Origin: Acidimicrobiales bacterium
Lineage (GTDB): Bacteria; Actinomycetota; Acidimicrobiia; Acidimicrobiales; CADCSY01
NCBI GenBank assembly: GCA_035512495.1
Contig: DATKDW010000019.1
Span: forward strand, 1-33,897
Direction: 5' to 3'
DNA: 33,897 nucleotides
Part shown: positions 4,653-33,011 of the stretch, one piece after another
Layout of the letters: every line of letters begins with the position of its first letter
How positions within the stretch are numbered: position 1 is the stretch's first letter
Made by a program: the position numbers and the translations under genes
The notes under the pieces: model-generated
Database searches by the model: none
Told to the model about the DNA's origin: nothing
Seen by the model: the letters and a program-made list of their open reading frames with translations, nothing else

Positions 4653-4946
4653 TCAGACCTCGGACGCGAGGTCGCGCTCGGCGGCGGCCCGCTGGGCACG
4701 TACGTTGTTGCGACGCTTCCAGAAGGGCTGCTTCCAGTGGCGAACCCGGCGAGACCCTTCCTTCGCGGGGGGCTTGCCCACCGAGGCCCTCCGGCCGGCG
4801 GAGACCGGACTTCGAGGGACCACCACCCCGTCCGGATCGCCGTCGAGCGCCAACTTGGCCTCCCGGCGCACTCGACGGTTGCCGACCTGGCGGTCTCCCT
4901 TGTCGGGGCGTGCCCCGGGATCCTCGTTCTGGTGGCGACGACTCAT
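4653..4946 (-). CDS. Hypothetical basic protein
   Basis: A 97-residue, very basic, hydrophilic protein with no membrane segment and no recognised domain. Arg and Lys are spread over the whole length, with a cluster HWKQPFWKRRNN near residue 75. The frame is open much further upstream into the neighbouring gene, but the ATG at 4946 has a good AGGGGG site 6 nt before it and marks where the composition changes. It sits alone between the ABC exporter and the importer operon. A nucleic-acid-binding role would fit the charge but nothing else supports it. Confidence 0.6.
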   Translation of the reverse strand: MSRRHQNEDPGARPDKGDRQVGNRRVRREAKLALDGDPDGVVVPRSPVSAGRRASVGKPPAKEGSRRVRHWKQPFWKRRNNVRAQRAAAERDLASEV

Positions 4947-21996: not shown

Positions 21997-22205
21997 TCAG
22001 ATCAGAGCGCGGGGGATCTCGAGGTTCCAGTTCTGGCTGAAGACCCCGTCTTGCCCTCGTTGCCCATCGGCTCGTCCAGTTCCAGCGGTGCGGCGGCTTC
22101 GTGGGAGAGGCGGTGGGTCAGGTTCAGCACCCCGAAGCTGACCAGGGTCGCGGACCCGTCCTGGGCGACGTCGGAGAGTCGGGCGGCGAGCAGGGCGACG
22201 GCCAC
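21997..22205 (-). pseudogene. CocE/NonD-type hydrolase fragment
   Basis: On the minus strand, 22071-22205 encodes ALLAARLSDVAQDGSATLV and then VLNLTHRLSHE, the characteristic block in the C-terminal beta-sandwich domain of CocE/NonD (X-Pro dipeptidyl-peptidase S15-like) hydrolases. Only about 45 residues are recognisable in this frame. A different frame, ending with a stop at 21997, encodes WNLEIPRALI, which could be the very end of the same protein, but the roughly 100 residues normally in between are missing. No start, catalytic triad or upstream part is present. This is a decayed remnant with an internal deletion or frameshift. Confidence 0.55.
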
Positions 22206-22227
22206 GCAACCACCGTCATGGCCTGTT

Positions 22228-22246
22228 CTCAGGAACCTCACAGGAA
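22228..22246 (+). promoter_or_regulatory. Direct-repeat operator of an OmpR-type regulator
   Basis: CTCAGGAA (22228-22235) and CACAGGAA (22239-22246) repeat with an 11-nt period, one helical turn, 20 nt before the truncated regulator gene. Tandem repeats with this spacing are typical of OmpR/PhoB-family binding sites and suggest autoregulation when the gene was whole. Confidence 0.45.
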
Positions 22247-22265
22247 TGCCTGACAGCCTGGATCG

Positions 22266-22538
22266 ATGGCCGGTGAGACCCTGCTGCTCGTCGACGACGA
22301 GGAGAACCTGCGCTCGATGCTCCAGGCCGCGCTGCGCCACGTCGGCTTCGAGGTGCACCCGGCGGCGACAGGCCGCGAGGCGCTCGAGGCGGCGGCCGCG
22401 ATCCGGCCCGACCTGATCGTGCTCGACGTCATGCTGCCGGACCTCGACGGGTTCGAGGTGTGCAGCCGCCTGCGCCGCGACGGCAGCACCATCCCGGTGC
22501 TGTTCCTCACGGCAAGCTCGGCGTACAGGCGGTTGTAG
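22266..22538 (+). pseudogene. Truncated OmpR-family response regulator (receiver only)
   Basis: The frame encodes 90 residues. The first 83 are a clean receiver start: acidic pocket in LLLVDDEENL (D9, D10), phospho-acceptor in LIVLD54VMLPDLDGFEV and the Thr strand IPVLFLTA. The similarity stops right after LFLTA at about position 22,512, followed by seven unrelated codons and a stop. The conserved Lys, the last helices and the whole winged-helix DNA-binding domain are missing. The break coincides exactly with the beginning of a sugar-kinase fragment on the other strand. The gene should be non-functional, unless the partial receiver acts as a phosphate sink, which is unlikely without the Lys. 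Confidence 0.8.
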
Positions 22539-22675
22539 ACCGCCGATGCGTGGGGGTCGGGCGTGAAGGTGCGCTCAACCCCCACGAGCGCGTCCACCTC
22601 ATCGAGGCGGACGGCGCCCAGCGCCAGACCGGCATAGGCCCAGCGACGCTCGGCTCGCAATCGCTCCGATCGGCG
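22514..22675 (-). pseudogene. FGGY-type sugar kinase, C-terminal fragment
   Basis: On the minus strand about 54 codons encode the C-terminal part of an FGGY carbohydrate kinase. They read AYAGLALGAVRLDEVDALV, then ERTFTPDP and AVYNRLYAEL. The final F.PDP..h..Y..LY pattern is typical of the last helices of these kinases. There is no start, no ATP-binding core and no proper stop: at 22,514 the frame runs into the response-regulator stump. It is an isolated piece brought next to the regulator by a rearrangement. Confidence 0.55.
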
Positions 22676-22736
22676 CACATGCCGGTGATCCGGGTGGATC
22701 GCTCGCGAGGAGGAGTGTCGTAGGCGTCCTGGTGAC

Positions 22737-23666
22737 TCACTCGCCGGGACGGCCGATGCAGAAGGGATGACCGGCTGGGTCTGCGTAAACGGGGAACCCC
22801 TCGCGTTGGCGGAGGATCGAGCCACCCAATTCGGTGACACGCGCCGCGACCGGTGCCGGGTCGTCGAACACGAGATCGAAGTGCACTTGGGCCGGATACG
22901 CCGGGTCGGGCCAGCGTGGCGGCTCGGCATTTGAGTGCTGGAATGCGAGCACCGGTGCGGTGTTGGTCCCAAGGAGGCGCTCGTAGAACTTCTGCAGGGC
23001 GTCGGGGTCAGGAGCGTCGATCACCAGCCGCCATAGCTCCGGGTCCTGCACATCAGCGGGATAGAGGCAGAAGGGATGCCCAACGACGTCGGCATAGACC
23101 CGATGGTCGTCGAAGTCCGCGAGGTGGGTAGCGCCGCGGACGACGAGCGCGTCGACGGCGTCGAGATCACCGACTCGGATGTCGAGGTGCATCTGCTGGG
23201 GGTAGGCGGGATCGGGCCAGCGGGGACGCGGGTCGTTGGGCTGTCCCTCGTCAAACACGAGTTGTGGGACGTCCCACCGATCGAGGTGAAGTAGATCGCC
23301 GTAGAGCGCGGACATCGCGGCGCGGTCCTCGTTCCACGGGCACTGCAGAACGATGTTGGTGATTCCCTCGGCGGCGCGGCGCTTGAGCGACGCTCCGAAC
23401 CATCGGCCGGCGTCATCCAAGATGATCGTGGCGACGGCGGTACCACGCTCGCCCTCGAGGTGGAACCGCGTCAGCGTCGACGACACCACAGTCTCGCTGA
23501 CAACCCAACGTCGCGACCCCAGCAGCGCGTCGAGCCCCGTGATCCACTGGCCACGAATCCATGATTCGGCGTCCCACCCCTGCAGTCGTGGCGCCAATAG
23601 CGAGGTGAGCGCCGCTACAACGCCTCGGTCGAGTAGGTCGAGGACCTCGCGCGGCTCCGCCACCAC
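22737..23666 (-). CDS. Tandem glyoxalase-like (VOC) protein with NTF2-like N-terminus
   Basis: A 309-residue soluble protein in three parts. Residues 1-98 look like an NTF2/SnoaL-type alpha-beta domain. Residues about 105-205 and 210-309 are two copies of a glyoxalase_6-type VOC domain. The copies share RWPDPAYPxQxHxD and VYADxxGHPFC, about 100 residues apart, so the pair can form one VOC barrel within the chain. VOC proteins include glyoxalases, dioxygenases and bleomycin-sequestering proteins; metal ligands are not certain here. The start is GTG at 23666. TAGCGT lies 6 nt before it, so the mRNA is probably leaderless. Confidence 0.85.
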   Translation of the reverse strand: MVAEPREVLDLLDRGVVAALTSLLAPRLQGWDAESWIRGQWITGLDALLGSRRWVVSETVVSSTLTRFHLEGERGTAVATIILDDAGRWFGASLKRRAAEGITNIVLQCPWNEDRAAMSALYGDLLHLDRWDVPQLVFDEGQPNDPRPRWPDPAYPQQMHLDIRVGDLDAVDALVVRGATHLADFDDHRVYADVVGHPFCLYPADVQDPELWRLVIDAPDPDALQKFYERLLGTNTAPVLAFQHSNAEPPRWPDPAYPAQVHFDLVFDDPAPVAARVTELGGSILRQREGFPVYADPAGHPFCIGRPGE

Positions 23667-23678
23667 AACGGGACGCTA
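23667..23678 (-). promoter_or_regulatory. Leaderless-type promoter of the VOC gene
   Basis: On the minus strand TAGCGT (23673-23678) is followed by a 6-nt spacer and the GTG at 23666. No Shine-Dalgarno lies between them. Confidence 0.45.
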
Positions 23679-23815
23679 GCCACGGTCGCTCTCGGTCGCT
23701 GCGACCGGCAGAAGGGTGTACCCGGCAGCCTTGAACCGACCCGCACCCATCAGCAGCACAAGAACCCGGACAGCAGCGTCAGCTGGCGCGTCCCTATCGG
23801 CGCTTACGCGAGCGG

Positions 23816-24466
23816 TCAGGGCTGGGTGGGCGGTGTCTCCTGCGGACCTTCGTCGCGAGCGCTGGGAGTCCATTCGAGCGGCAGCGCAGCGAAGAACATC
23901 ACGTCGCACCGCTGGCCCTGCCAGACACCTTGCGAGCGCATCGTTCCCTCGTAGACGAATCCCGCACGCCGGGCGACCGCGGCTGAGGCGTCGTTTCCAT
24001 CGACGATCTTCAAGACGACGCGAGCAGCTCCCAGATCGAACAGCCAGCGGGTGAGAAGCGTCGCAGCGCGGGTCGCGTAGCCACGTCCTCGCGCACGCGG
24101 GCCGATCCAGTATCCGAACTGAACGACGTCGGTCTTGGACCAGTCATCAAGGCCGCAGCATCCCAGCAGGTCACCCGAGGTGGCATCGACGATCGCGAAT
24201 GCCACCCCCGCACCGGGCATCTCCTGTGTTGCGAACACCTGCCAACTCAAGGTGAACTCCGCGATGACGGCCTCGGCATCGTTGGTTGACATCGGCGCCG
24301 CGGGATACCCGAAGCGATCGAGTGTCCCGTTGTAGCGCTGGACGGCGGGGTCGGCGTTCGCCTCCGCCATGAACCAGGCATCTTCAGGTGACCACGGACG
24401 CAGAGCAACCGTGCCATCCGAAAGCGTGACCGCCAGGCCGTGGGCATCGCCCTTGCTCACGTCCAT
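23816..24466 (-). CDS. GNAT-family N-acetyltransferase (RimJ/RimL type)
   Basis: A 216-residue acetyl-CoA-dependent acyltransferase. The fold starts at about residue 15 (VTLSDGTVALRPWSPEDA), and the acetyl-CoA pyrophosphate loop is IGPRARGRGYATRAATLLTRW (about 127-147), matching R/Q-x-x-G-x-G/A. The C-terminal part has NDASAAVARRAGFVYEGTMR, the RimJ/RimL pattern. Substrates in this subgroup are protein N-termini or small amines, including antibiotics; this one cannot be assigned. The ATG at 24466 has GGAGGGG 5-6 nt upstream. The last 20 residues are a polar tail. It is one of several stand-alone detoxification-type genes in this region. Confidence 0.9.
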   Translation of the reverse strand: MDVSKGDAHGLAVTLSDGTVALRPWSPEDAWFMAEANADPAVQRYNGTLDRFGYPAAPMSTNDAEAVIAEFTLSWQVFATQEMPGAGVAFAIVDATSGDLLGCCGLDDWSKTDVVQFGYWIGPRARGRGYATRAATLLTRWLFDLGAARVVLKIVDGNDASAAVARRAGFVYEGTMRSQGVWQGQRCDVMFFAALPLEWTPSARDEGPQETPPTQP

Positions 24467-24745
24467 CCGGACCCCTCCAGTGTTGCCGAAGCGTCAGGCG
24501 GTGCCCGCGAGCTCTGCAGAGCCCCCGGCCGCACGGCCGAACTCGGTTCCTATCGCGCGCTCAAGATCCCAGCAACTGAGATCCACGGTGCCGAGCAGAA
24601 CGGCGCGTACGTTTGCAACATCACGGGTCTGGCTTCGCAAGGTCGGCGGCTGGGCTCGCGAACGCCCAGGTGGGCGCGAGCAAGGGCTACATGGGGGCAC
24701 TGGTTCTGATGCGGTCGAGTACGCCTATCGCCCGAGAGTGGTGCG
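24467..24745. other. Intergenic stretch without a recognised gene
   Basis: About 280 bases between the two acetyltransferase genes. The first 20 carry the ribosome-binding site of the left gene. Short frames exist on both strands, but none shows a start signal or familiar motif. Confidence 0.4.
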
Positions 24746-25330
24746 TCACCGCAGGTCTCGGCGCATCACGACACGGCGGGGTGACGGTTCCGCAACGCAC
24801 TCGAACCCGCACTCCACGAATCGCCGCTGCTTGCCCACGAAGTCCTCCTGTGACTTCGGGTATTCGTCGGCAATGGGAAACCCCTCGATCGCCTTGGCAC
24901 CGTGAGCCTGGGCTGCCTTCACCGCAGCCGCCACCAGCAGCCCGGTCACCCCGCGCCGCCGGTAGCCGACCCGTACGAAGAAGCAGGGCAGCAGCCACAC
25001 GTCATCGTCCTCAGCGGAATCTCGGCCCTTGAGGATCTTCGCCCTGGGACCAATCGCTCTCGGATAGCGGGACCGAGGACCAGTCGCCAGCCAACCCACG
25101 GGAACAGCGCCATCGTAGGCGAGCAGCCCCAGCGGTGGATCGGAGCGAACGGCAAGCTCCTCGAACGCCCGGCGGTTGCCTCCATCGATCCACCCCTTGC
25201 GGACCTCCCTGGCCGGGCTGATGAACCACATGCACCAGCACCCGCGAGTTGCCGACCCCGTCTCGAACAAGTCGGCAAGATCATCAAGGCGATCGGGCGT
25301 GGCCGGATGAACCTCCACAACCACAAGCAT
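24746..25330 (-). CDS. GNAT-family N-acetyltransferase
   Basis: A 194-residue GNAT protein. The N-terminal part has a Cys/Trp-rich stretch (ATRGCWCMWFISP, about residues 27-39) seen in a group of stand-alone actinobacterial acetyltransferases. The acetyl-CoA loop follows the strand WLLPCFFVRVGYRRRGVTG (about 111-129), matching R-x-x-G-V. The C-terminal segment GAKAIEGFPIADE and FVECGFECVAE completes the fold. Substrate unknown. The ATG at 25330 has only a weak GAGG just before it. It is on the same strand as the other acetyltransferase but 280 nt away, so it is probably transcribed separately. Confidence 0.88.
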   Translation of the reverse strand: MLVVVEVHPATPDRLDDLADLFETGSATRGCWCMWFISPAREVRKGWIDGGNRRAFEELAVRSDPPLGLLAYDGAVPVGWLATGPRSRYPRAIGPRAKILKGRDSAEDDDVWLLPCFFVRVGYRRRGVTGLLVAAAVKAAQAHGAKAIEGFPIADEYPKSQEDFVGKQRRFVECGFECVAEPSPRRVVMRRDLR

Positions 25331-25532
25331 GCCTCACGCCAACATGGCCCGCTATGGATGAACTCGCCCTGGCTGCGATACGACACCCCGGCGCATCTCC
25401 ACCGTCGTGCCAGAGCGAACGACGACAACTCGGGTGTCACTGAGCCGCACGAGCGCTCACGAATCCGACCAAGAGCCCCTCGGAAGGTACTCGCTATCGG
25501 CGCACCTTCACCTACGGAAGGTTGACAGCTCG

Positions 25533-27206
25533 CTACGTCAGGGGCAGCAGACCAGACTTCGACCGTGGGTACCGGTCGTCGCGGGTGACGACGTTGAGGG
25601 CGGTGTCGAGGTCCAGTGCCTCGTGCACGGAGCCGTCGTCACCGATGATGAGCCAACGGTTCATCGAGCGCATGAACGAGCGGTCGTGAGTGACAGAGAC
25701 CACCGTGCCATCGAACAGGTCAAGCGACGCCTCGAGGGCCTCGGCCGACCCGAGGTCGAGGTTGTCAGTCGGCTCGTCGAGCAGGAGCAGGTTTACCCCA
25801 CGCAGCTCGAGATCCAGCACCTGGAGTCGCGCTCGCTGTCCGCCGCTCAACGTCTCGACCTCGCGCAAAGCTGCGCCCGAGAGCCCGTAGCGGCCCAGGT
25901 ACGCTCGGGCCCGCTCCTCGTTGAGGTCCCGGTCGCTGAGGATGTCGAGGAGCTGACGGCCCCGGTGCTCAGGCACGTCATCGGTCTGGTGGAACAGGCC
26001 GGGCACGACCCGGGCCCCAAGTCGAAACGACCCCTCGTGTCCGACGGTCTCGTCCCCGGCAAGCAAGCGGAGCAAGTGCGACTTGCCTGTGCCGTTCGGT
26101 CCCAGAACACCGATCCGTTCGCCATGGTGGACCTCGAGGTCGAATGGTTCGGTGAGGCCGCACAGTTCCAACCTGTCGCATCGCAGCACGATCTTTCCGC
26201 TCCCCGCCCCTTCGAGACGGACGTGGATCGTCCGCTCCGGCGGCGGGCTCGGGGGTGGTCCGACTTCCACGAACCGCTCCCAACGGGTCTCGGCGGCGTT
26301 CGCCCGGGGCGCGTTGCCGTCGTTCAGGGACGCGCGCTGCTTCATCTCTCGCATGAACCTGAACAGCCGCCTCTCCTCGTCCTTCCACCGCTGCAGGGCA
26401 TCACCCATCGACTCGTTGCGGGCTCGGCGGGCATCGTCGTAGGTCGTCCATCCCTCCGGATGGGTCCAGCATCCGTTCACCTCGAGGGTCACCACCGCTG
26501 TCGCCGCCTCGGTCAACAGCTCGCGATCGTGGGAGATGAACAGGATCGTCTTCTGGCTCGACGCGATCTGCCGCTCGAGCCAGCGCTTGGCCGGGATGTC
26601 GAGGAAGTTGTCGGGCTCGTCCAGGAGCAGGATCGGGACGTCGGACGCGAACAGCGACTCCAGCACCAATCGCTTGCGCTCCCCGCCGGAGAGCTCGCTG
26701 ATGGGACGCCCACCGGCACGGTCGAGCGTCTGACCCAGCACCAGATTGCACGCGGCATCCCACTTTGCTTCAGCCTGGTAGCCACCCACCTCGGCCCACT
26801 TGATGACGGCTGCAGCCAAAGCACTCCCGGTTCCCGCCGACGGTGATTGGTCGTTGGCCCTCTCAGCACCCGCCAGGGCCCGAGCCGCGTCGCGGAGCTC
26901 TGGTCGAGCGAACTCAACAAGCAGCTCGCGGACGGTGGTGTCGCCTCGGGAGGCCACCGACTGCGTGCACGTGGTGTCAGAACCGATCGCCTGCGGCATG
27001 TACGCCACCGCAGCGTCGGTGCGGACCGACCCTTCTGTTGGCCGTAGATCGCCAACGATGCAACCCAGCAAGGTCGACTTGCCCACGCCGTTCTGCCCGA
27101 CAAGGGCGACGTGCGCCCCGGAGCGCACCTTGAAAGAGGCCCCGCGAAAGAGTTCGGTGCCGCCCGGGTGAGCGAACGCGACACCTGAGACCTCGATCAC
27201 GGCCAT
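25533..27206 (-). CDS. ABC-F family ATPase (ribosome-associated)
   Basis: A 557-residue soluble protein with two ABC ATPase domains and no membrane segment, the layout of ABC-F proteins that bind the ribosomal E site. Some of these protect against antibiotics and others relieve stalling. The first domain has GQNGVGKST (about 35-43), LSGGERKRL and LLLDEPDNFLD. The second has GPNGTGKSH (about 364-372), LSGGQRARL and LLLDEPTDNLDL. The linker between them (about 255-320) is charged and helical. The frame is open 15 codons further upstream, but ATG at 27206 starts the family pattern AVIEVSGVAFAHPGG and has CATGAT 6 nt before it. It diverges from the attenuator and leucyl-tRNA synthetase, a context consistent with translation stress or resistance. 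Confidence 0.92.
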   Translation of the reverse strand: MAVIEVSGVAFAHPGGTELFRGASFKVRSGAHVALVGQNGVGKSTLLGCIVGDLRPTEGSVRTDAAVAYMPQAIGSDTTCTQSVASRGDTTVRELLVEFARPELRDAARALAGAERANDQSPSAGTGSALAAAVIKWAEVGGYQAEAKWDAACNLVLGQTLDRAGGRPISELSGGERKRLVLESLFASDVPILLLDEPDNFLDIPAKRWLERQIASSQKTILFISHDRELLTEAATAVVTLEVNGCWTHPEGWTTYDDARRARNESMGDALQRWKDEERRLFRFMREMKQRASLNDGNAPRANAAETRWERFVEVGPPPSPPPERTIHVRLEGAGSGKIVLRCDRLELCGLTEPFDLEVHHGERIGVLGPNGTGKSHLLRLLAGDETVGHEGSFRLGARVVPGLFHQTDDVPEHRGRQLLDILSDRDLNEERARAYLGRYGLSGAALREVETLSGGQRARLQVLDLELRGVNLLLLDEPTDNLDLGSAEALEASLDLFDGTVVSVTHDRSFMRSMNRWLIIGDDGSVHEALDLDTALNVVTRDDRYPRSKSGLLPLT

Positions 27207-27218
27207 GGCAAGATCATG
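27207..27218 (-). promoter_or_regulatory. Leaderless-type promoter of the ABC-F gene
   Basis: On the minus strand CATGAT (27213-27218) is followed by a 6-nt spacer and the ATG at 27206. There is no Shine-Dalgarno. It lies 82 nt from the -10 box of the divergent leader-peptide promoter. Confidence 0.4.
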
Positions 27219-27274
27219 ACAGCCGGGCTGCACCGACGACCCACGGCACATGCTCTCTCTTGGGTTCTGGACAA

Positions 27275-27306
27275 TTGCGACGGCGCTGGCTGGGATCTCG
27301 TATGCT
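27275..27306 (+). promoter_or_regulatory. Promoter of the leader peptide and leucyl-tRNA synthetase
   Basis: A clear -10 box TATGCT (27301-27306) lies 7 nt before the GTG of the leader peptide, so transcription should start at or next to that codon. A possible -35 TTGCGA (27275-27280) is 20 nt upstream, longer than the usual 17-18, so the -35 is uncertain. Confidence 0.55.
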
Positions 27307-27313
27307 CTGGCTC

Positions 27314-27352
27314 GTGAACGTTGTCGTGATCAACGACCTGCTTCTTACGTAG
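27314..27352 (+). CDS. Branched-chain amino acid leader peptide
   Basis: A 12-codon frame, GTG to TAG, encodes MNVVVINDLLLT. Seven of twelve residues are branched-chain: three consecutive Val (GTT GTC GTG), one Ile, then three consecutive Leu (CTG CTT CTT) directly before Thr and stop. It starts 7 nt after a -10 box, has no Shine-Dalgarno, and is followed at once by a 10-bp hairpin and an intrinsic terminator. This matches leader peptides of ribosome-mediated attenuators: slow decoding of Leu codons when charged tRNA-Leu is scarce alters RNA folding. The gene behind it is a leucyl-tRNA synthetase, so the sensed signal and the product fit. The peptide itself probably has no other function. Confidence 0.7.
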   Translation: MNVVVINDLLLT

Positions 27353-27376
27353 CGCGAGCCGACCAGTCGGCTCGCG
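27353..27376 (+). promoter_or_regulatory. Attenuator hairpin 1
   Basis: A perfect 10-bp inverted repeat, CGCGAGCCGA and TCGGCTCGCG, with loop CCAG, begins at the base right after the leader peptide stop. A ribosome stalled on the Leu codons (27338-27346) would cover its 5' arm. The freed 3' arm could pair, by TCGGC at 27367-27371, with GCCGG at 27398-27402 inside the terminator. That alternative pairing is only 5 bp and is inferred. Confidence 0.65.
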
Positions 27377-27378
27377 GT

Positions 27379-27418
27379 GAACCTCTCGTGCCTGATGGCC
27401 GGGAGGTTCTTTCGTTTT
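27379..27418 (+). terminator. Attenuator terminator before the leucyl-tRNA synthetase
   Basis: The stem GAACCTCTCG (27379-27388) pairs with CGGGAGGTTC (27400-27409), nine Watson-Crick pairs and one G-U. A small inner stem GCC/GGC with loop TGAT sits inside. TTTCGTTTT follows directly. It is a well-formed intrinsic terminator placed 73 nt before the synthetase start, where only a read-through decision would make sense. Confidence 0.8.
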
Positions 27419-27450
27419 CCCGTTCCAACATCAACGACCAGGAGGTCCCC

Positions 27451-27522
27451 ATGAAGTCGCAGCCCCGGTCCCGCACGGAGGGTCCACTTCGATGGCACAG
27501 CCCTACGAGGTACATGAGGTAG
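27451..27522 (+). CDS. Short upstream frame overlapping the synthetase start
   Basis: An ATG at 27451 with a near-consensus AGGAGG 5-6 nt upstream opens a 23-codon frame, beginning MKSQPRSRTEGP and ending with TAG at 27520-27522. This is 31 nt inside the synthetase gene in another frame. The strong ribosome site suggests real translation. Stopping just past the synthetase ATG (27492) could couple or tune its initiation. It may equally be an accident of the ribosome site serving the region. No function is known. Confidence 0.35.
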   Translation: MKSQPRSRTEGPLRWHSPTRYMR

Positions 27523-29693
27523 AAGCCCGCTGGCGCGAACGCTGGCGGGCTGAAGGAACTGGTCGGGTCAACCTCGACACGGTCGACCCCGACCAGGTGT
27601 TCATGAACCTGGCGGAGTTTCCGTATCCCTCCGCGGAGGGGCTCCATGTTGGACACGTGTACAAGTACTCCGGCGTGGACGCCTACGGGCGGTACATGCG
27701 CATGCGCGGCCGGGAGGTGTTCCAACCGATCGGCTTCGACGCCTTTGGCATCCACACCGAGAACTACGCCATCAAGGTCAACGAACACCCCGCCACACTG
27801 ACAGCCCGCACGACAGCCCGGTTCGCCGAGCAGCTCACCCGAGCCGGGATGGCCTGGGACTGGACCCGCGTCGTCGACACAAGTCGACCCGACTACTACC
27901 GGTGGACGCAGTGGGTCCTCGGCCGCCTGTTCGACGCGGGCTTGATGTACCAGTCCGAGGCGCCGGTGTTGTGGTGCCCGTCGTGTCTGACCGTGCTGGC
28001 TCGAGAGCAGACCGAGAACGACGGGACGATCTGTGAACGCTGCGACACGCCGGTGACCGAACGCGTCATGGAGCAGTGGTTCCTGCGCATCACCGACTAC
28101 GCCGAACGATTGCTCGACGGGCTGGAACGGCTCGACTGGCCCGAGCGCGCCAAGCGACTGCAGCGACAGTGGATCGGCCGATCCGAGGGCCGCGAGATCG
28201 ACTTCGACGGCCTGACGGTCTTCACGACCCGCCCCGACACCCTGCCGGCCGTGACGTTCATCGCCGTACCGGCCGGGCATCCGGCTGCCGGCACAAGGGT
28301 CGCTCACCCGCTCACCGGGAACCTGCTTCCGGTCCTCGAAGCCGACTACGTCCTCGAGGCATACGGCACCGGCGCGGTCATGGGTGTGCCGGCCCACGAC
28401 GAGCGCGACGCGCGATTCGCCACCGAGCATGACCTCCCTGTCTCCGACGCCGAGCTGCTGTCACCAGAGCGGGCCGCAGAGACTGGTCGCCCCGCGGTCC
28501 GGTACCGGTTGCGGGACTGGCTGATCTCACGCCAGCGCTACTGGGGCCCACCGATCCCGATCATCCACTGCCCAGACTGCGGACCCGTCCGAGTTCCCGA
28601 CCACGACCTCCCCGTGCTGCTGCCAGACGTGGAGGACTTCCGACCAACCGGCACCGGCCGCTCCCCCCTCGCTGAAGCCGCTGACTGGATCGCTGCACGG
28701 TGTCCCGCATGCGGCGCACAGGCGAGGCGAGAGACCGATGTCAGCGACACCTTCGTCGACTCCGCCTGGTACCTCCTCCGCTACCCCTCGACCGACTTCG
28801 ACGACCGGCCCTGGGACCCAGACCGCACGAAGAAGATCCTGCCCGTCGACTTCTACGCCGGCGGACCCGAGCACGTGCAACGCCACCACCTCTACGCCCG
28901 ATTCGCCACCATGGCCCTCCACGACCTCGGCCTCGTGCCATTCGAGGAACCCTTCCCACGAATCCGCCTCGGCGGCATGATCGTCCGCCACGGCGCCAAG
29001 ATGTCCAAGAGCCGCGGCAACATCGTCACCCCCGACGACTACATCGATGCCCACGGCGCCGACGTCCTCCGTTGCGCGCTCCTCTTCGCTGCACCATGGG
29101 AGCAAGGAGGCGACTTCAGCGACGCCGGCATCGTGGGCATCGAGCGCTTCTTCGCCCGTGCCTGGCGCACCATCACCCGTCCCGACACCACCGCCCCAAC
29201 CGATTCCGCCACAGTCGCCAGGACGATCATCGACGTGACGGAGGCCATCGAGCGGCTGGCTTTCAACGTCGGCCTCGCCCGGCTCATGGAACTGCTTCCG
29301 GCGGTGGCTTCGTCAGAAACCAAGCGCACCTTCGTCCGACTGCTCGCACCATTCGCCCCACACCTGGCCGAAGAGCTCTGGCAACAACTCGGCGAGGCCT
29401 TCTCCGTCCACACACAGCCCTGGCCGATCGTGGACAGCGCCGTGCTCGAAACATCGACGGCCGAGGTCGTCGTCCAAGTCAACGGACGCCTCCGAGGGAC
29501 CATCCAGATCCCACACGGAGCCAGCGAGGCCGCCGTCGTCCAAGCTGCCCGCTCGACCGTGCGGGCTGTGCCTGCGGAGGACCGGACCAGAATGGTCGTC
29601 TACGTGCCCAACCGTCTCCTCAACTTCGTCACCGCGGGGGGAGAAGGTGCCGGGCGACCGACAGCGCCCGCCGCTCGGAATGCTCCCGCGTAG
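27492..29693 (+). CDS. leuS: Leucyl-tRNA synthetase, short form
   Basis: A 733-residue class I synthetase that charges tRNA-Leu. The HIGH motif is HVGH (52-55) and the KMSKS motif is exact (503-507). Zinc-type Cys pairs lie at 162/165 with 181/184, and at 360/363 with 404/407. The editing (CP1) domain, about 232-335, keeps TTRPDT (245-250) and GTGAVMGVPAHDERD, ending at Asp306, the residues matching the editing Thr and Asp of E. coli LeuRS. It is only about 100 residues, against nearly 200 in E. coli, which accounts for much of the short total length (about 860 is usual). The start is ATG at 27492 with GGAGG 10 nt upstream. The preceding attenuator and the accessory surroundings suggest a second, regulated copy, possibly inhibitor-resistant; a normal leuS elsewhere is assumed, not seen. 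Confidence 0.93.
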   Translation: MAQPYEVHEVEARWRERWRAEGTGRVNLDTVDPDQVFMNLAEFPYPSAEGLHVGHVYKYSGVDAYGRYMRMRGREVFQPIGFDAFGIHTENYAIKVNEHPATLTARTTARFAEQLTRAGMAWDWTRVVDTSRPDYYRWTQWVLGRLFDAGLMYQSEAPVLWCPSCLTVLAREQTENDGTICERCDTPVTERVMEQWFLRITDYAERLLDGLERLDWPERAKRLQRQWIGRSEGREIDFDGLTVFTTRPDTLPAVTFIAVPAGHPAAGTRVAHPLTGNLLPVLEADYVLEAYGTGAVMGVPAHDERDARFATEHDLPVSDAELLSPERAAETGRPAVRYRLRDWLISRQRYWGPPIPIIHCPDCGPVRVPDHDLPVLLPDVEDFRPTGTGRSPLAEAADWIAARCPACGAQARRETDVSDTFVDSAWYLLRYPSTDFDDRPWDPDRTKKILPVDFYAGGPEHVQRHHLYARFATMALHDLGLVPFEEPFPRIRLGGMIVRHGAKMSKSRGNIVTPDDYIDAHGADVLRCALLFAAPWEQGGDFSDAGIVGIERFFARAWRTITRPDTTAPTDSATVARTIIDVTEAIERLAFNVGLARLMELLPAVASSETKRTFVRLLAPFAPHLAEELWQQLGEAFSVHTQPWPIVDSAVLETSTAEVVVQVNGRLRGTIQIPHGASEAAVVQAARSTVRAVPAEDRTRMVVYVPNRLLNFVTAGGEGAGRPTAPAARNAPA

Positions 29694-29704
29694 TCTCGGG
29701 AGAG

Positions 29705-30256
29705 ATGACGATCGGAAACGCGGAGCAGTCCCATCCCGACCCGAGGGTTCCACCCAATCTGCACGTACCCCGACCCGACGAGAGCGCACCTGTCGACGAG
29801 CTCACCATGCTTCGTGGTTGGCTCGCTCATCTCCGGGGCGGAGCCATCTACAAGGTCGAAGGGCTGAGCCCGACACAGCTGCGGTGGCGACCAGCCCCGA
29901 CAGCCAACAGCCTGGGCGGCATCGTGATGCACTTGGCCTCGGCTGAGCGTCTGTGGATTCGCGTCGTCTTCGCCGGTGAGGAGATGGACATGGAGTGGAC
30001 GCGTGACCGCTACGCCCCGACATTCATCGTGCCGGACGGTTGGACTAGCCATGAGGTGGTCGCCTTCTACCGCGCGGAGACGGCCAGGGCGGATGAGATC
30101 CTCGACGCGTGCGACTCGGCCGACCTTCCCTCACGCGGAGAAATACGACCGACGACCCTTCGCTGGGTACTGACGCACCTCGTGGAGGAACTGGCGCGAC
30201 ATCTTGGCCACATGGACATCACGCGAGAGCTGATCGACGGAAAGATCGGTCGATAG
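29705..30256 (+). CDS. DinB/DUF664 family protein
   Basis: A 183-residue four-helix-bundle protein of the DinB-like superfamily, DUF664 branch. From about residue 33 it shows the family order: LTMLRGWLAHLRGGAIYKVEG, then GGIVMHLASAERLWI with the first metal-ligand His, and near the end LTHLVEELARHLGHMDITREL with two further His. Three His ligands fit a divalent-metal site. Related proteins are thiol-dependent transferases, for example using mycothiol, but no activity can be assigned. It begins 12 nt after the synthetase stop. A TAGTCT box (29691-29696) lies 8 nt before the ATG, so it may have its own nearly leaderless promoter besides read-through. Confidence 0.88.
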   Translation: MTIGNAEQSHPDPRVPPNLHVPRPDESAPVDELTMLRGWLAHLRGGAIYKVEGLSPTQLRWRPAPTANSLGGIVMHLASAERLWIRVVFAGEEMDMEWTRDRYAPTFIVPDGWTSHEVVAFYRAETARADEILDACDSADLPSRGEIRPTTLRWVLTHLVEELARHLGHMDITRELIDGKIGR

Positions 30257-30413
30257 CACTTCAGCTCACAGTGCCTATCCCGCAACGGCCGGCTCATTCC
30301 GCTCGCCGGTAGCCACCATCCGGTAGGCATGCGACGACCCGGGAACGGTCGGGAGTCAGCCGGGACCGGACCAGGAGTCGTTCACAGAGCACCCACCGCG
30401 GGAGGATGTGCAC

Positions 30414-31925
30414 ATGACCGATAACCCCTGGCAGGGCGATGCCTGCTCGCTCGTCGACGCCTTCCGCGCCGGCGAGCGCTCGCCGGTCGAGGAGCTTGAG
30501 GCCACCCTCGCCGCGATCGAGGCCTCCGACCTCAACTGCTTCTCCCACGTCGACCCCGAGCGCGCCCGCGCTGCCGCGGCGACGGCGGACCTGTCGTTGC
30601 CCTTCGGCGGCGTGCCCACCGCGATCAAGGAGCTCGACCCGGTCGAGGGATGGCCGTGGACGGAGGCATCACTCGTCTACAAGGACCGCATCGCGAGTTA
30701 CACGTCGCACCAGACGCAGCGACTCTTCGAGCGGGGTGGCGTCGTGCCCGTGGGCAAGACGACGGCGAGCGAGTTCGGCGGCCTCAACGTCAGCGTGAGC
30801 AAGATCAACGGCGTCACCCACAACCCATGGCGCCACGGTCGCACCTGTGGCGGCTCCTCGAGCGGCTCCGCGGCTGCGGTGTCCGGTGGTCTGGTCAGCC
30901 TGGCCGCCGGCGGCGACGGCGGCGGTTCGATCCGCATCCCGGCCGCGTACACCGGCCTCCTCGGCATGAAGGGCACCTTCGGGCGCATTCCCCGCGGGCC
31001 CCACGCGTTCATGCGACCGAACACGGTGGTGCTCGGCAACTTGTCGCGCTCAGTGCGCGACGCCGCCCGCTACTACGACGTGTGTGCCGGCACCCACCTC
31101 TATGACCCGTCCAGCCTGCCGTCGCACGGTCGGTGGGAGGCAGGGCTGGGATCGAGTGACCTCAAGGGTCTCCGCGTCGCGATCGTGCCGGCCCTGGGCG
31201 GGGCCACCCTCGAGCCTGGGGTCGAGGACCGCATCCGGACCGAGGCGAAGCAGCTCATCGCGGATGGCGGCATGGTGGAGGTGGATGTCTCCGTCGAGCC
31301 GCCCAACCTGGCTGCCCAGTGGATGATGGGCAACCTGGCGACGCTCCTTGCCGATCTCGGCGATGCCTGGCCGCACTGCTCCGGTGATCTCACCGATGAG
31401 GTGGCCGTGGGCCTGCACCTCGCCGAGGCGATGTACAACCTGCGGACAGCCGCTGTCGCCGAGGAGCTGCGCATCCAGGCCAACGAGGTGATGGCGCGTG
31501 CCTTCGAGCAGGCCGACCTCATCATCGCCGCTACGAACCCGGGCCCTGCGTTCGCTGCGGAGGCGTCGACGAGCAACGAGCAGGTCCCGATCATCGACAA
31601 GCTGTTCTCCGCCGGTCCTGCGCGCTACGCCGTCCGAGCCCTCCTGGGCGCCGTGCGGGTCGTGGCCGGTGCCGCGCCCAAGCTCCCGTCCACAGTGCTC
31701 GGCCATGCCGAGGCGCGCTTGCCAGACCTCGTGAACATGGGCGCCCTCACGATCATCGCCAACCTCTACGGCAACCCGGCGGTGTCGATCCCGGCCGGCA
31801 CCCTCGACGGTCTCCCGGTGGGCATGCAGGTGCTGGCTGCCCACCACCGCGACGAGCTGCTCTTCGACGTCGCTCTCGCCGTCGAGCGCGAGCGCCCCTG
31901 GCCGCTGGTGGCACCCGGCGCGTGA
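30414..31925 (+). CDS. Amidase signature family hydrolase
   Basis: A 503-residue amidase that hydrolyses a carbon-nitrogen bond of an amide. The Ser-cisSer-Lys triad is visible: Lys in PTAIKELDP (about residue 72), the Gly/Ser block RTCGGSSSGSAAAV (about 144-157) and nucleophile Ser in GGDGGGSIRIPAA (about 166-178). The length is typical for the family. Substrate is unknown; the family also covers GatA-like proteins, but no gatB or gatC lies here. ATG at 30414 is preferred over GTG at 30408 because GGAGG sits 8 nt before the ATG. It is probably transcribed alone, with 157 nt upstream free of genes. Confidence 0.92.
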   Translation: MTDNPWQGDACSLVDAFRAGERSPVEELEATLAAIEASDLNCFSHVDPERARAAAATADLSLPFGGVPTAIKELDPVEGWPWTEASLVYKDRIASYTSHQTQRLFERGGVVPVGKTTASEFGGLNVSVSKINGVTHNPWRHGRTCGGSSSGSAAAVSGGLVSLAAGGDGGGSIRIPAAYTGLLGMKGTFGRIPRGPHAFMRPNTVVLGNLSRSVRDAARYYDVCAGTHLYDPSSLPSHGRWEAGLGSSDLKGLRVAIVPALGGATLEPGVEDRIRTEAKQLIADGGMVEVDVSVEPPNLAAQWMMGNLATLLADLGDAWPHCSGDLTDEVAVGLHLAEAMYNLRTAAVAEELRIQANEVMARAFEQADLIIAATNPGPAFAAEASTSNEQVPIIDKLFSAGPARYAVRALLGAVRVVAGAAPKLPSTVLGHAEARLPDLVNMGALTIIANLYGNPAVSIPAGTLDGLPVGMQVLAAHHRDELLFDVALAVERERPWPLVAPGA

Positions 31926-31951
31926 CCGAACCCGTCTGGGATGATGCGGGC

Positions 31952-32065
31952 ATGACGCACTTCAAGGTCGGCGACAAGGTCATCATCACCGAGGGCGACT
32001 TCAACGCCTCCTCGAACGCAGCGGCTGCCGCACGGTCGGCGACGGTCAGACCCGAAGCCAGGTGA
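31952..32065 (+). CDS. Possible 37-residue protein or gene stump
   Basis: ATG at 31952 opens a frame of 37 residues, MTHFKVGDKVIITEGD followed by an Asn/Ser/Ala-rich end. GATGAT (31940-31945) lies 6 nt upstream, the same start-proximal box as at other genes here, so a real leaderless start is plausible. The first 16 residues look like the opening beta strands of a small SH3-like or KOW-like barrel. The rest loses any pattern, so it may be the 5' stump of a longer gene. Confidence 0.35.
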   Translation: MTHFKVGDKVIITEGDFNASSNAAAAARSATVRPEAR

Positions 32066-32135
32066 CGCCCGTCGCCAGCCTCGAGCAGCAGCCGGTTGAG
32101 GACGTCCTCTGCAGCGCGTGACCATGGGAAGCAGC

Positions 32136-32160
32136 CGTACTACAGTGTAGATACGTGTAG
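32136..32160 (+). promoter_or_regulatory. Palindromic operator-promoter of the toxin-antitoxin pair
   Basis: CTACA-G-TGTAG (32140-32150) is a perfect palindrome, flanked by CGTA and TACG arms (32136-32139, 32152-32155), with a further TGTAG copy at 32156-32160. TACAGT (32141-32146) can serve as -10 box. Ribbon-helix-helix antitoxins typically bind such repeats and repress their own operon. Confidence 0.5.
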
Positions 32161-32174
32161 CGAGGAGGTTCGCA

Positions 32175-32585
32175 TTGGCGAAGGGCCAGCCATTCAGCGT
32201 GCGGTTGGACGAGTCAACCGAGCGCCTCGTCGAAGCAGAAGCGCGGCGGACCCGCCGCTCCAAGAGCGCCGTCGTCGAAGCGTTCACCGAAGAGGGTGCC
32301 CGCGTTCGCCGCTTCGCCGGCATCGCGTTCCGCGGTGACGATGCCAACCGGCGCGCCTGGGTGATCGGTTCCGGGCTGGACGTCTGGGAGATCGTCCAGC
32401 AGGCGGAGGAAGCCGCGCCACTTGCGCTGGTCGAGGATACCCACCTCTCGGCCGCACAGGTGCGACTCGCGCTCGCCTACCGGGCCGCCTTCCCCGAAGA
32501 GATCGACGCCCTCATCGTCGAGAACCACAGGCCGCTCGATGAGCTGCGCGTCCTCTATCCCTTCATCGAGGTCGTCGAGGCCTGA
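32175..32585 (+). CDS. Antitoxin: ribbon-helix-helix N-terminus plus DUF433-like C-terminus
   Basis: A 136-residue protein. Residues 5-45 have the ribbon-helix-helix pattern of small DNA-binding antitoxins (FSVRLDESTERLVEAEARR, then KSAVVEAFTEEGAR). Residues about 60-125 resemble DUF433 (SGLDVWEIVQQAEE and LSAAQVRLALAYRAAFPEEID), a domain usually paired with PIN-like toxins. The start is TTG at 32175 with AGGAGG exactly 6 nt upstream. It ends 2 nt before the toxin gene. The expected role is to bind and silence the toxin and repress the operon through the upstream palindrome. Confidence 0.85.
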   Translation: MAKGQPFSVRLDESTERLVEAEARRTRRSKSAVVEAFTEEGARVRRFAGIAFRGDDANRRAWVIGSGLDVWEIVQQAEEAAPLALVEDTHLSAAQVRLALAYRAAFPEEIDALIVENHRPLDELRVLYPFIEVVEA

Positions 32586-32587
32586 GC

Positions 32588-32938
32588 TTGCGGCTCCTCC
32601 TCGACGCCAACCTCTCCCCCAAGCGAATCGGCGCCGCCCTCGAACAACGAGGGCACGATGTGCTGAGTCTCGCCGCCGAGCCCAACCTCGGCGCGCTCGC
32701 CGACCCCCAGGTGCTCGAGCTCGCCGCCGAGCAAGGACGCATCCTCGTCACCCGAAACTCGCGCGACTTCGCGCCGCTGCTGCGGCAGTGGGCTGAAGCA
32801 GGTCGCGTCCACCCCGGCTGCATCCTCATCTGGACGCTCGCCCACAACGAGTTCGGCAAGATCATCGAGGCCGTAGCCGCGCTCCTCGACGAACGCAGCG
32901 ATCCGGCGCTTTGGCGAGATCTCACGGTGGCGCTGTAG
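32588..32938 (+). CDS. Toxin: DUF5615 PIN-like nuclease
   Basis: A 116-residue protein with the PIN-like DUF5615 pattern. It opens with the first acidic residue in RLLLDANLSP (Asp6), then HDVLSL, an internal helix with LADPQVLELAAEQG, and the strand ILVTRNSRDFAPL with the conserved T-R-N-x-x-D motif. Such proteins are the nuclease toxins of DUF433-linked pairs and are thought to cut RNA. The start is TTG at 32588, 2 nt after the antitoxin stop, with GAGG in the antitoxin's last codons as ribosome site. Length is normal and no catalytic residue appears lost. Confidence 0.85.
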   Translation: MRLLLDANLSPKRIGAALEQRGHDVLSLAAEPNLGALADPQVLELAAEQGRILVTRNSRDFAPLLRQWAEAGRVHPGCILIWTLAHNEFGKIIEAVAALLDERSDPALWRDLTVAL

Positions 32939-33011
32939 CGAGCACCGTCCCCTTCGGCCTCGGCAACGACCGGCCACGACGTCGGTACGGGCCGGCTTGA
33001 ATACGGAAGAA

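Follow-up and report, generated by a model that had tools for sequence, protein, structure and literature searches.

The window, by which we mean the whole 33,897-nt stretch of Acidimicrobiales DNA analyzed here, carries on its forward strand a gene for a 733-aa leucyl-tRNA synthetase (leuS2, 27492..29693; NCBIfam leuS_bact), preceded by a compact leader on the same strand. A predicted -10 box of the TANNNT type, TATGCT (27301..27306), is followed 7 nt downstream by the GTG start codon of a candidate leaderless ORF of 12 codons (27314..27352; GTG AAC GTT GTC GTG ATC AAC GAC CTG CTT CTT ACG TAG), whose peptide would read VNVVVINDLLLT and in which CTG CTT CTT place leucine at positions -4, -3 and -2 relative to the stop. 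Immediately 3′ of the stop codon lies a perfect 10-bp hairpin, P1 (CGCGAGCCGA-CCAG-TCGGCTCGCG, 27353..27376), and 2 nt beyond it a predicted intrinsic terminator, T (GAACCTCTCGTGCC-TGAT-GGCCGGGAGGTTC, 27379..27418), composed of a 13-bp stem with one bulge (27379-27409) and a T-rich tail (27410-27418). The leuS2 start codon, an ATG at 27492, is preceded by a Shine-Dalgarno-like GGAGGG (27477..27482) that is kept in relatives. The first-pass annotation had listed the -10 box, the leaderless 12-codon peptide with its three Leu codons, the 10-bp hairpin and the terminator ahead of a LeuRS gene, and all are present. The leader folds with an energy of -54.9 kcal/mol, as against -35.1 kcal/mol for shuffled sequences (z -5.4). 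A generic promoter and terminator scan was uninformative, reporting neither the leader promoter nor T, and the support for both sites is therefore comparative. We infer that transcription starts at or beside the GTG at 27314.

The first-pass annotation overlooked that the LeuRS encoded here is an accessory enzyme with a reduced editing domain, and that the ordinary leuS of the same genome resides elsewhere (contig C4). LeuRS2 scores 709 bits against NCBIfam leuS_bact (TIGR00396; curated cut-off 548) and retains the HVGH, KMSKS, TTRPDT and HDERD motifs. Although it is a bacterial LeuRS by score, it does not possess a complete CP1 editing domain: the region between WIGRS and YRLRDW spans 111 residues, compared with about 190 in full LeuRS, and relative to Thermus thermophilus LeuRS (1h3n) the protein is missing parts of CP1 as well as the leucine-specific insertion before KMSKS. 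In phylogenetic analysis it falls within an accessory LeuRS clade of the phylum (14 sequences, support 100/100) that is separate from ordinary actinobacterial LeuRS, and in this clade the WIGRS-YRLRDW region varies from 156 residues in L232 to about 8-19 in L226, L227, L016 and L235. LeuRS2 belongs to a family in which the editing domain has been shortened or deleted. The whole CP1 domain is missing from the four accessory genes with the shortest regions and from two plasmid-borne ones (L237 and L238), found on plasmids annotated as conjugative in the cyanobacteria Nostoc and Aulosira; these losses lie in several separate branches. Among the sequence matches of LeuRS2 are AgnB2 (PDB 5ah5) and the CP1-less, 637-aa LeuRS of PDB 3ziu, which we take to be that of Mycoplasma mobile; the latter has no editing domain, whereas LeuRS2 keeps part of it.

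As the first-pass annotation had anticipated, the leader block recurs at homologous leuS loci. It is found in full upstream of 12 of the 14 members of the accessory clade; one of the others (L234) has no leader, and at the related LeuRS L233 (positions 286-351) the leaderless peptide, ending TLVLT before the stop, and P1 are kept without a clear intrinsic terminator. All relatives of leuS2 at 64-75% protein identity share the block, with leader peptides MIQSTNSRLLRM, MLQPIISRLLRL, MLQSTNTRLLLT, MRNVTDVRLLT, MTGLIFHVLLLE, MKPQTRLQLM, MKTNTRLQLM, MKPQTRLQLE and MKPYTRLQLN, and it is present as well at a leuS locus of 57% identity (peptide MRWNLLLR) and at the 53% copy in L235. In 10 of 11 leuS leaders a strict TANNNT pattern lies 6-7 nt 5′ of the start codon, and the eleventh (L039) has the close variant CATACT at 6 nt, a spacing that, judged from sequence, is the layout of leaderless transcripts. 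Around the ordinary leuS of the window's genome, neither such a leader nor an Rfam T-box was found. The absence of a T-box before leuS2, reported in the first-pass annotation, holds: the leader has no match in Rfam at gathering or lax thresholds, T-box models included, and T-box control of leuS2 was rejected on this ground. Separately, in a Thermomicrobiales locus (L040, about 4700-4810), leuS is preceded by GGGTGGTACCGCG and then a terminator-like hairpin; this arrangement resembles a T-box antiterminator but has no Rfam match above threshold.

We trained a covariance model on the 11 leuS leaders and ran it on 395 genomes of the class, most of the genomes compared being metagenome assemblies; it returned leader matches in 230 of them. 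Ninety-nine of these leaders were read, of which 81 precede leuA (in two types), 6 precede ilvB, 11 precede leuS and 1 is unassigned. A second model, constructed from leuA leaders alone (32 in number), yielded a single match in the 33,897 bases of the window, at 27335-27418 (E 2.3e-18), and matched all the other leuS leaders with E values of 1e-10 to 1e-18. In the window's genome this model has exactly two matches, one before leuA (C82:41300-41382) and one before leuS2. By the measure of these models, the leader in front of leuS2 is a member of the class's leuA leader RNA family.

Both stems of this RNA covary. In an alignment of 94 distinct leaders, paired cells amount to 94.6% for P1 and T together and 95.9% for T, and compensatory changes on both sides are seen in 20 of the 22 modeled pairs (9/9 in P1, 11/13 in T). 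The number of cells changed on both sides is 382, compared with 101 in shuffles, none of which (0/500) reached as high a value, and structures slid along the alignment gave at most 94. Since the alignment had been fitted to the model, we added an alignment-free test in which the arms of the helices are permuted among leaders; matched arms bind far better than permuted ones, for P1 (z -22.6) as for T (z -21.8).

The leucine codons occupy fixed places. Counting back from the stop, leucine is found at -4, -3 and -2 in 79/80, 80/80 and 80/80 leuA leaders and in 10/11, 7/11 and 9/11 leuS leaders, and Val, Leu and Ile are mixed at these positions in ilvB leaders. The rare codon CTT accounts for 36.5% of the Leu codons in leaders versus 6% in genes, an enrichment of about sixfold, and the share of CTG among Leu codons is 44% in genes and 22% in leaders. 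The leuS leaders carry fewer Leu codons than those of leuA, one subgroup having only CTT-CAG-CTC. The Val and Ile codons, in which the first-pass annotation saw a broader branched-chain signal, are peculiar to the window's copy; other leuS leaders keep only Leu. Because Val and Ile are not conserved at leuS loci, the signal is better read as leucine. In 95 of 98 leaders P1 begins 0-2 nt 3′ of the stop, and the median gap between P1 and T is 1 nt. Given the general footprint of a ribosome, one stalled at -3 or -2 reaches to near the base of P1, and one at the stop codon covers the 5′ arm of P1.

These observations lead us to interpret the block as a leucine-responsive, ribosome-mediated transcription attenuator controlling the accessory LeuRS, a reading to which we assign a probability of about 0.8; the first-pass annotation had likewise proposed an attenuator sensing leucyl-tRNA before a LeuRS gene, and the conservation of the block, the covarying stems, the kept Leu positions and the RNA held in common with leuA bear it out. 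A leader of this design might instead sense translation in general, responding to antibiotic-stalled ribosomes as do the attenuators of ABC-F resistance genes. A divergent gene for a ribosomal-protection-like ABC-F protein does adjoin the leader (25536-27206), and antibiotic-sensing attenuators are known before lmrC (PMC8546547), but the ABC-F gene and leuS2 lie on opposite strands, the ABC-F neighbor is missing at other leuS2 loci, the Leu codons are conserved at fixed places with enrichment of a rare codon, and an identical type of RNA precedes leuA. We accordingly regard general translation sensing as improbable.

How the leucine signal would be passed to the terminator was approached by searching for a third helix. 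Every arm combination other than the two stems behaves at chance in the permutation analysis, including the 3′ arm of P1 with T3 (z +0.4). For the 3′ arm of P1 with T5, matched duplexes average -5.19 against -5.26 for permuted ones over all leaders (z +0.56), and -3.40 against -3.78 over the leuS leaders. When the 11 leuS leaders were taken alone, the 3′ arm of P1 with the loop plus T3 came out at 2%, a value that is one of many comparisons and was discounted. Mutual information across leaders recovers only P1 and T. As no third helix covaries, no classical antiterminator is detectable in the 87-98 leaders compared, and a P1-terminator antiterminator of the classical kind is unsupported both by the duplex-energy permutations (11 and 87 leaders) and by mutual information. 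Pairing of the run of Leu codons with the 3′ arm of the terminator (-12 kcal/mol) was also considered and rejected; it is possible everywhere because Leu codons are C-rich, and is no better than with random Leu codons. The description of the attenuator as complete therefore stands for the peptide, P1 and the terminator and not for a competing helix: from sequence, the sensor side resembles classical attenuation and the switch does not appear to.

A classical switch could nonetheless be hidden if, upon stalling, the 3′ arm of P1 paired with the GCC part of T5 through a helix too conserved or too short to covary. Such a weak antiterminator would fit with GGYGC in P1 and GYGCC in T5 being pairable in many leuA leaders, with the conservation of the terminator GCC/GGC without compensatory change, and with the conserved complementary triples gGCC-rGCy-GGCC of actinobacterial trp attenuators (PMC1262725). 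However, the matched-arm duplex energies are no better than permuted, the pairing is missing in the CTT-CAG-CTC subgroup, and P1 should remain largely free to form when the ribosome stalls on Leu, which would prevent the 3′ arm of P1 from pairing with T5; on balance we consider this arrangement rather unlikely. A different possibility, which we advance tentatively, is that P1, adjoining the stop codon, itself carries the signal without an antiterminator, and that an attenuator used across the class now stands before a mobile, editing-losing spare LeuRS, where it might provide an inducible backup when the main LeuRS is poisoned.

Under the attenuator reading, transcription would begin at the GTG, and the first ribosome would load on the leaderless end and trail RNA polymerase. 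With leucyl-tRNA plentiful, this ribosome would pass the Leu codons and reach the stop, where it would mask the 5′ arm of P1, and the terminator would end most transcripts. With leucyl-tRNA scarce, through leucine starvation or inhibition of the main LeuRS, it would stall on CTG-CTT-CTT with its leading edge near the base of P1, so that P1 could form; this stalled state would give more read-through, and LeuRS2 would be made. The comparison supports the component parts and the way they covary, together with the Leu codons and the RNA family common with leuA, and from these we infer, for the leuS2 leader, the start site, the stalling, the efficiency of termination and the direction of the response to leucine. 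Because a leucine-sensing leader precedes a second LeuRS, the spare enzyme is probably made only when charged leucine tRNA is short. Alternatively, the leader might be a relic copied from leuA with the acquired gene, leuS2 being effectively silent or constitutively low. The reduced number of Leu codons in leuS leaders would suit a relic, as would the sporadic distribution of leuS2, which is carried by 8 of the 50 main-family genomes (the family of G144) and, in the window's own family, by 1 of 12, the window alone. Yet where the LeuRS proteins are 64-75% identical the leuS leaders still have both stems and the -10 boxes, and two further families have kept the block as well, which makes a relic very improbable.

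Downstream of the terminator, a candidate second small ORF (27440..27522, forward strand; peptide MKSQPRSRTEGPLRWHSPTRYMR) has a Shine-Dalgarno sequence AGGAGG at 27440-27445, an ATG at 27451 and a stop at 27522 that lies inside leuS2, into which it runs in a different frame. Its Shine-Dalgarno sequence, its start and the motif ..(R)xEGPLxW.. are kept in the 9 closest relatives; the ORF occurs at the same place in L009, L010, L012-L016 and L095, and its overlap with the leuS2 start ranges from 31 to 70 nt across loci. In the codons for R, E, G, P and L the variable columns are third positions, which hints that the ORF is coding.

The accessory leuS2, which occurs in addition to the ordinary leuS, is sporadic and was probably acquired. 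GC3 is about 0.9 for genes at 1-19 kb and, with some exceptions, about 0.75-0.83 at 22-33 kb, and neighboring genes differ at other leuS2 loci. The window's family includes a 74% relative of a transporter gene at 2.8-4.6 kb, and none of the ABC-F gene or of leuS2. Contamination of the bin was rejected as an explanation for the two leuS genes, given the same-family relative in the left part of the contig and the absence there of the ABC-F and leuS2 part, a pattern that fits an acquired stretch; the evidence that the right-hand part was acquired is only suggestive. The region at about 22000-33000, with lower GC3, contains two GNAT acetyltransferase genes, the divergent ABC-F gene, leuS2, a mycothiol-transferase-like gene and an amidase gene (itself of high GC3), and may be an acquired island. 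Two small neighboring genes at 32175-32938, of which the second encodes a DUF5615 (PIN-like) domain, look like a toxin-antitoxin-type pair. In the plasmid collection the only LeuRS sequences found were below 60% identity to LeuRS2, and no close carrier was seen.

The comparison brings to light a leucine-sensing leader family, compact and widespread, placed before leuA, ilvB and accessory leuS in Acidimicrobiia, for which Rfam searches gave no match. Since two helices are conserved and no antiterminator is visible, it becomes possible to test how leader-peptide attenuation is read out in high-GC, leaderless systems. Spare, inducible LeuRS enzymes whose editing domains have eroded also emerge as possible agents of natural resistance to inhibitors of LeuRS. 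The trpRS1 gene of Streptomyces coelicolor was reportedly tested by Vecchione and Sello for resistance to indolmycin. By analogy, the closest functional counterpart of leuS2 is this inducible spare, an auxiliary, antibiotic-resistant TrpRS gene under ribosome-mediated transcriptional attenuation (Vecchione and Sello, 2010, as cited in PMC4787780). Like it, leuS2 is a second gene beside a housekeeping one and, judged by comparison, under attenuation; the amino acid is tryptophan there and leucine here. AgnB2 of Agrobacterium radiobacter K84 is likewise a second LeuRS, conferring self-immunity against a LeuRS poison (PMC5059758), and by analogy LeuRS2 may have a resistance role.

The leuA leaders described in Actinobacteria (the LEU element; leuL1 of S. 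lividans) share with those of Acidimicrobiia a leaderless, Leu-rich peptide before leuA, but they have no typical terminator, and the structure described for them is a pseudoknot in which the leuA Shine-Dalgarno sequence takes part, whereas the Acidimicrobiia leaders have P1 and an intrinsic terminator. In S. coelicolor, mutations of ilvB and leuA leader codons had effects other than those predicted by classical attenuation (as cited in PMC1262725). Attenuators before synthetase genes are less exceptional than the first-pass annotation implied, classical ones having been predicted before leuS and trpS in Streptomyces, with leuS in S. coelicolor and S. avermitilis (Seliverstov et al., 2005; PMC1262725), and RNA-seq reannotation of S. 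lividans TK24 having placed a leaderless LeuL2 peptide, MRAVRLLLSEPR, before leuS (2021; PMC8079986). The resemblance to LeuL2 is close, in that leuS is preceded by a leaderless 12-residue peptide with three Leu, then a hairpin, then a run of U. These papers name no second copy, and the prediction includes an antiterminator (PMC8079986; PMC1262725); the gene in the window, by contrast, encodes an accessory LeuRS whose editing domain is shortened, and its leader has a hairpin abutting the stop codon and no detectable antiterminator. An attenuator before leuS is thus of a kind already known, and what appears from these comparisons to be new is an accessory, editing-reduced LeuRS placed behind the class's own leuA leader with no visible antiterminator.
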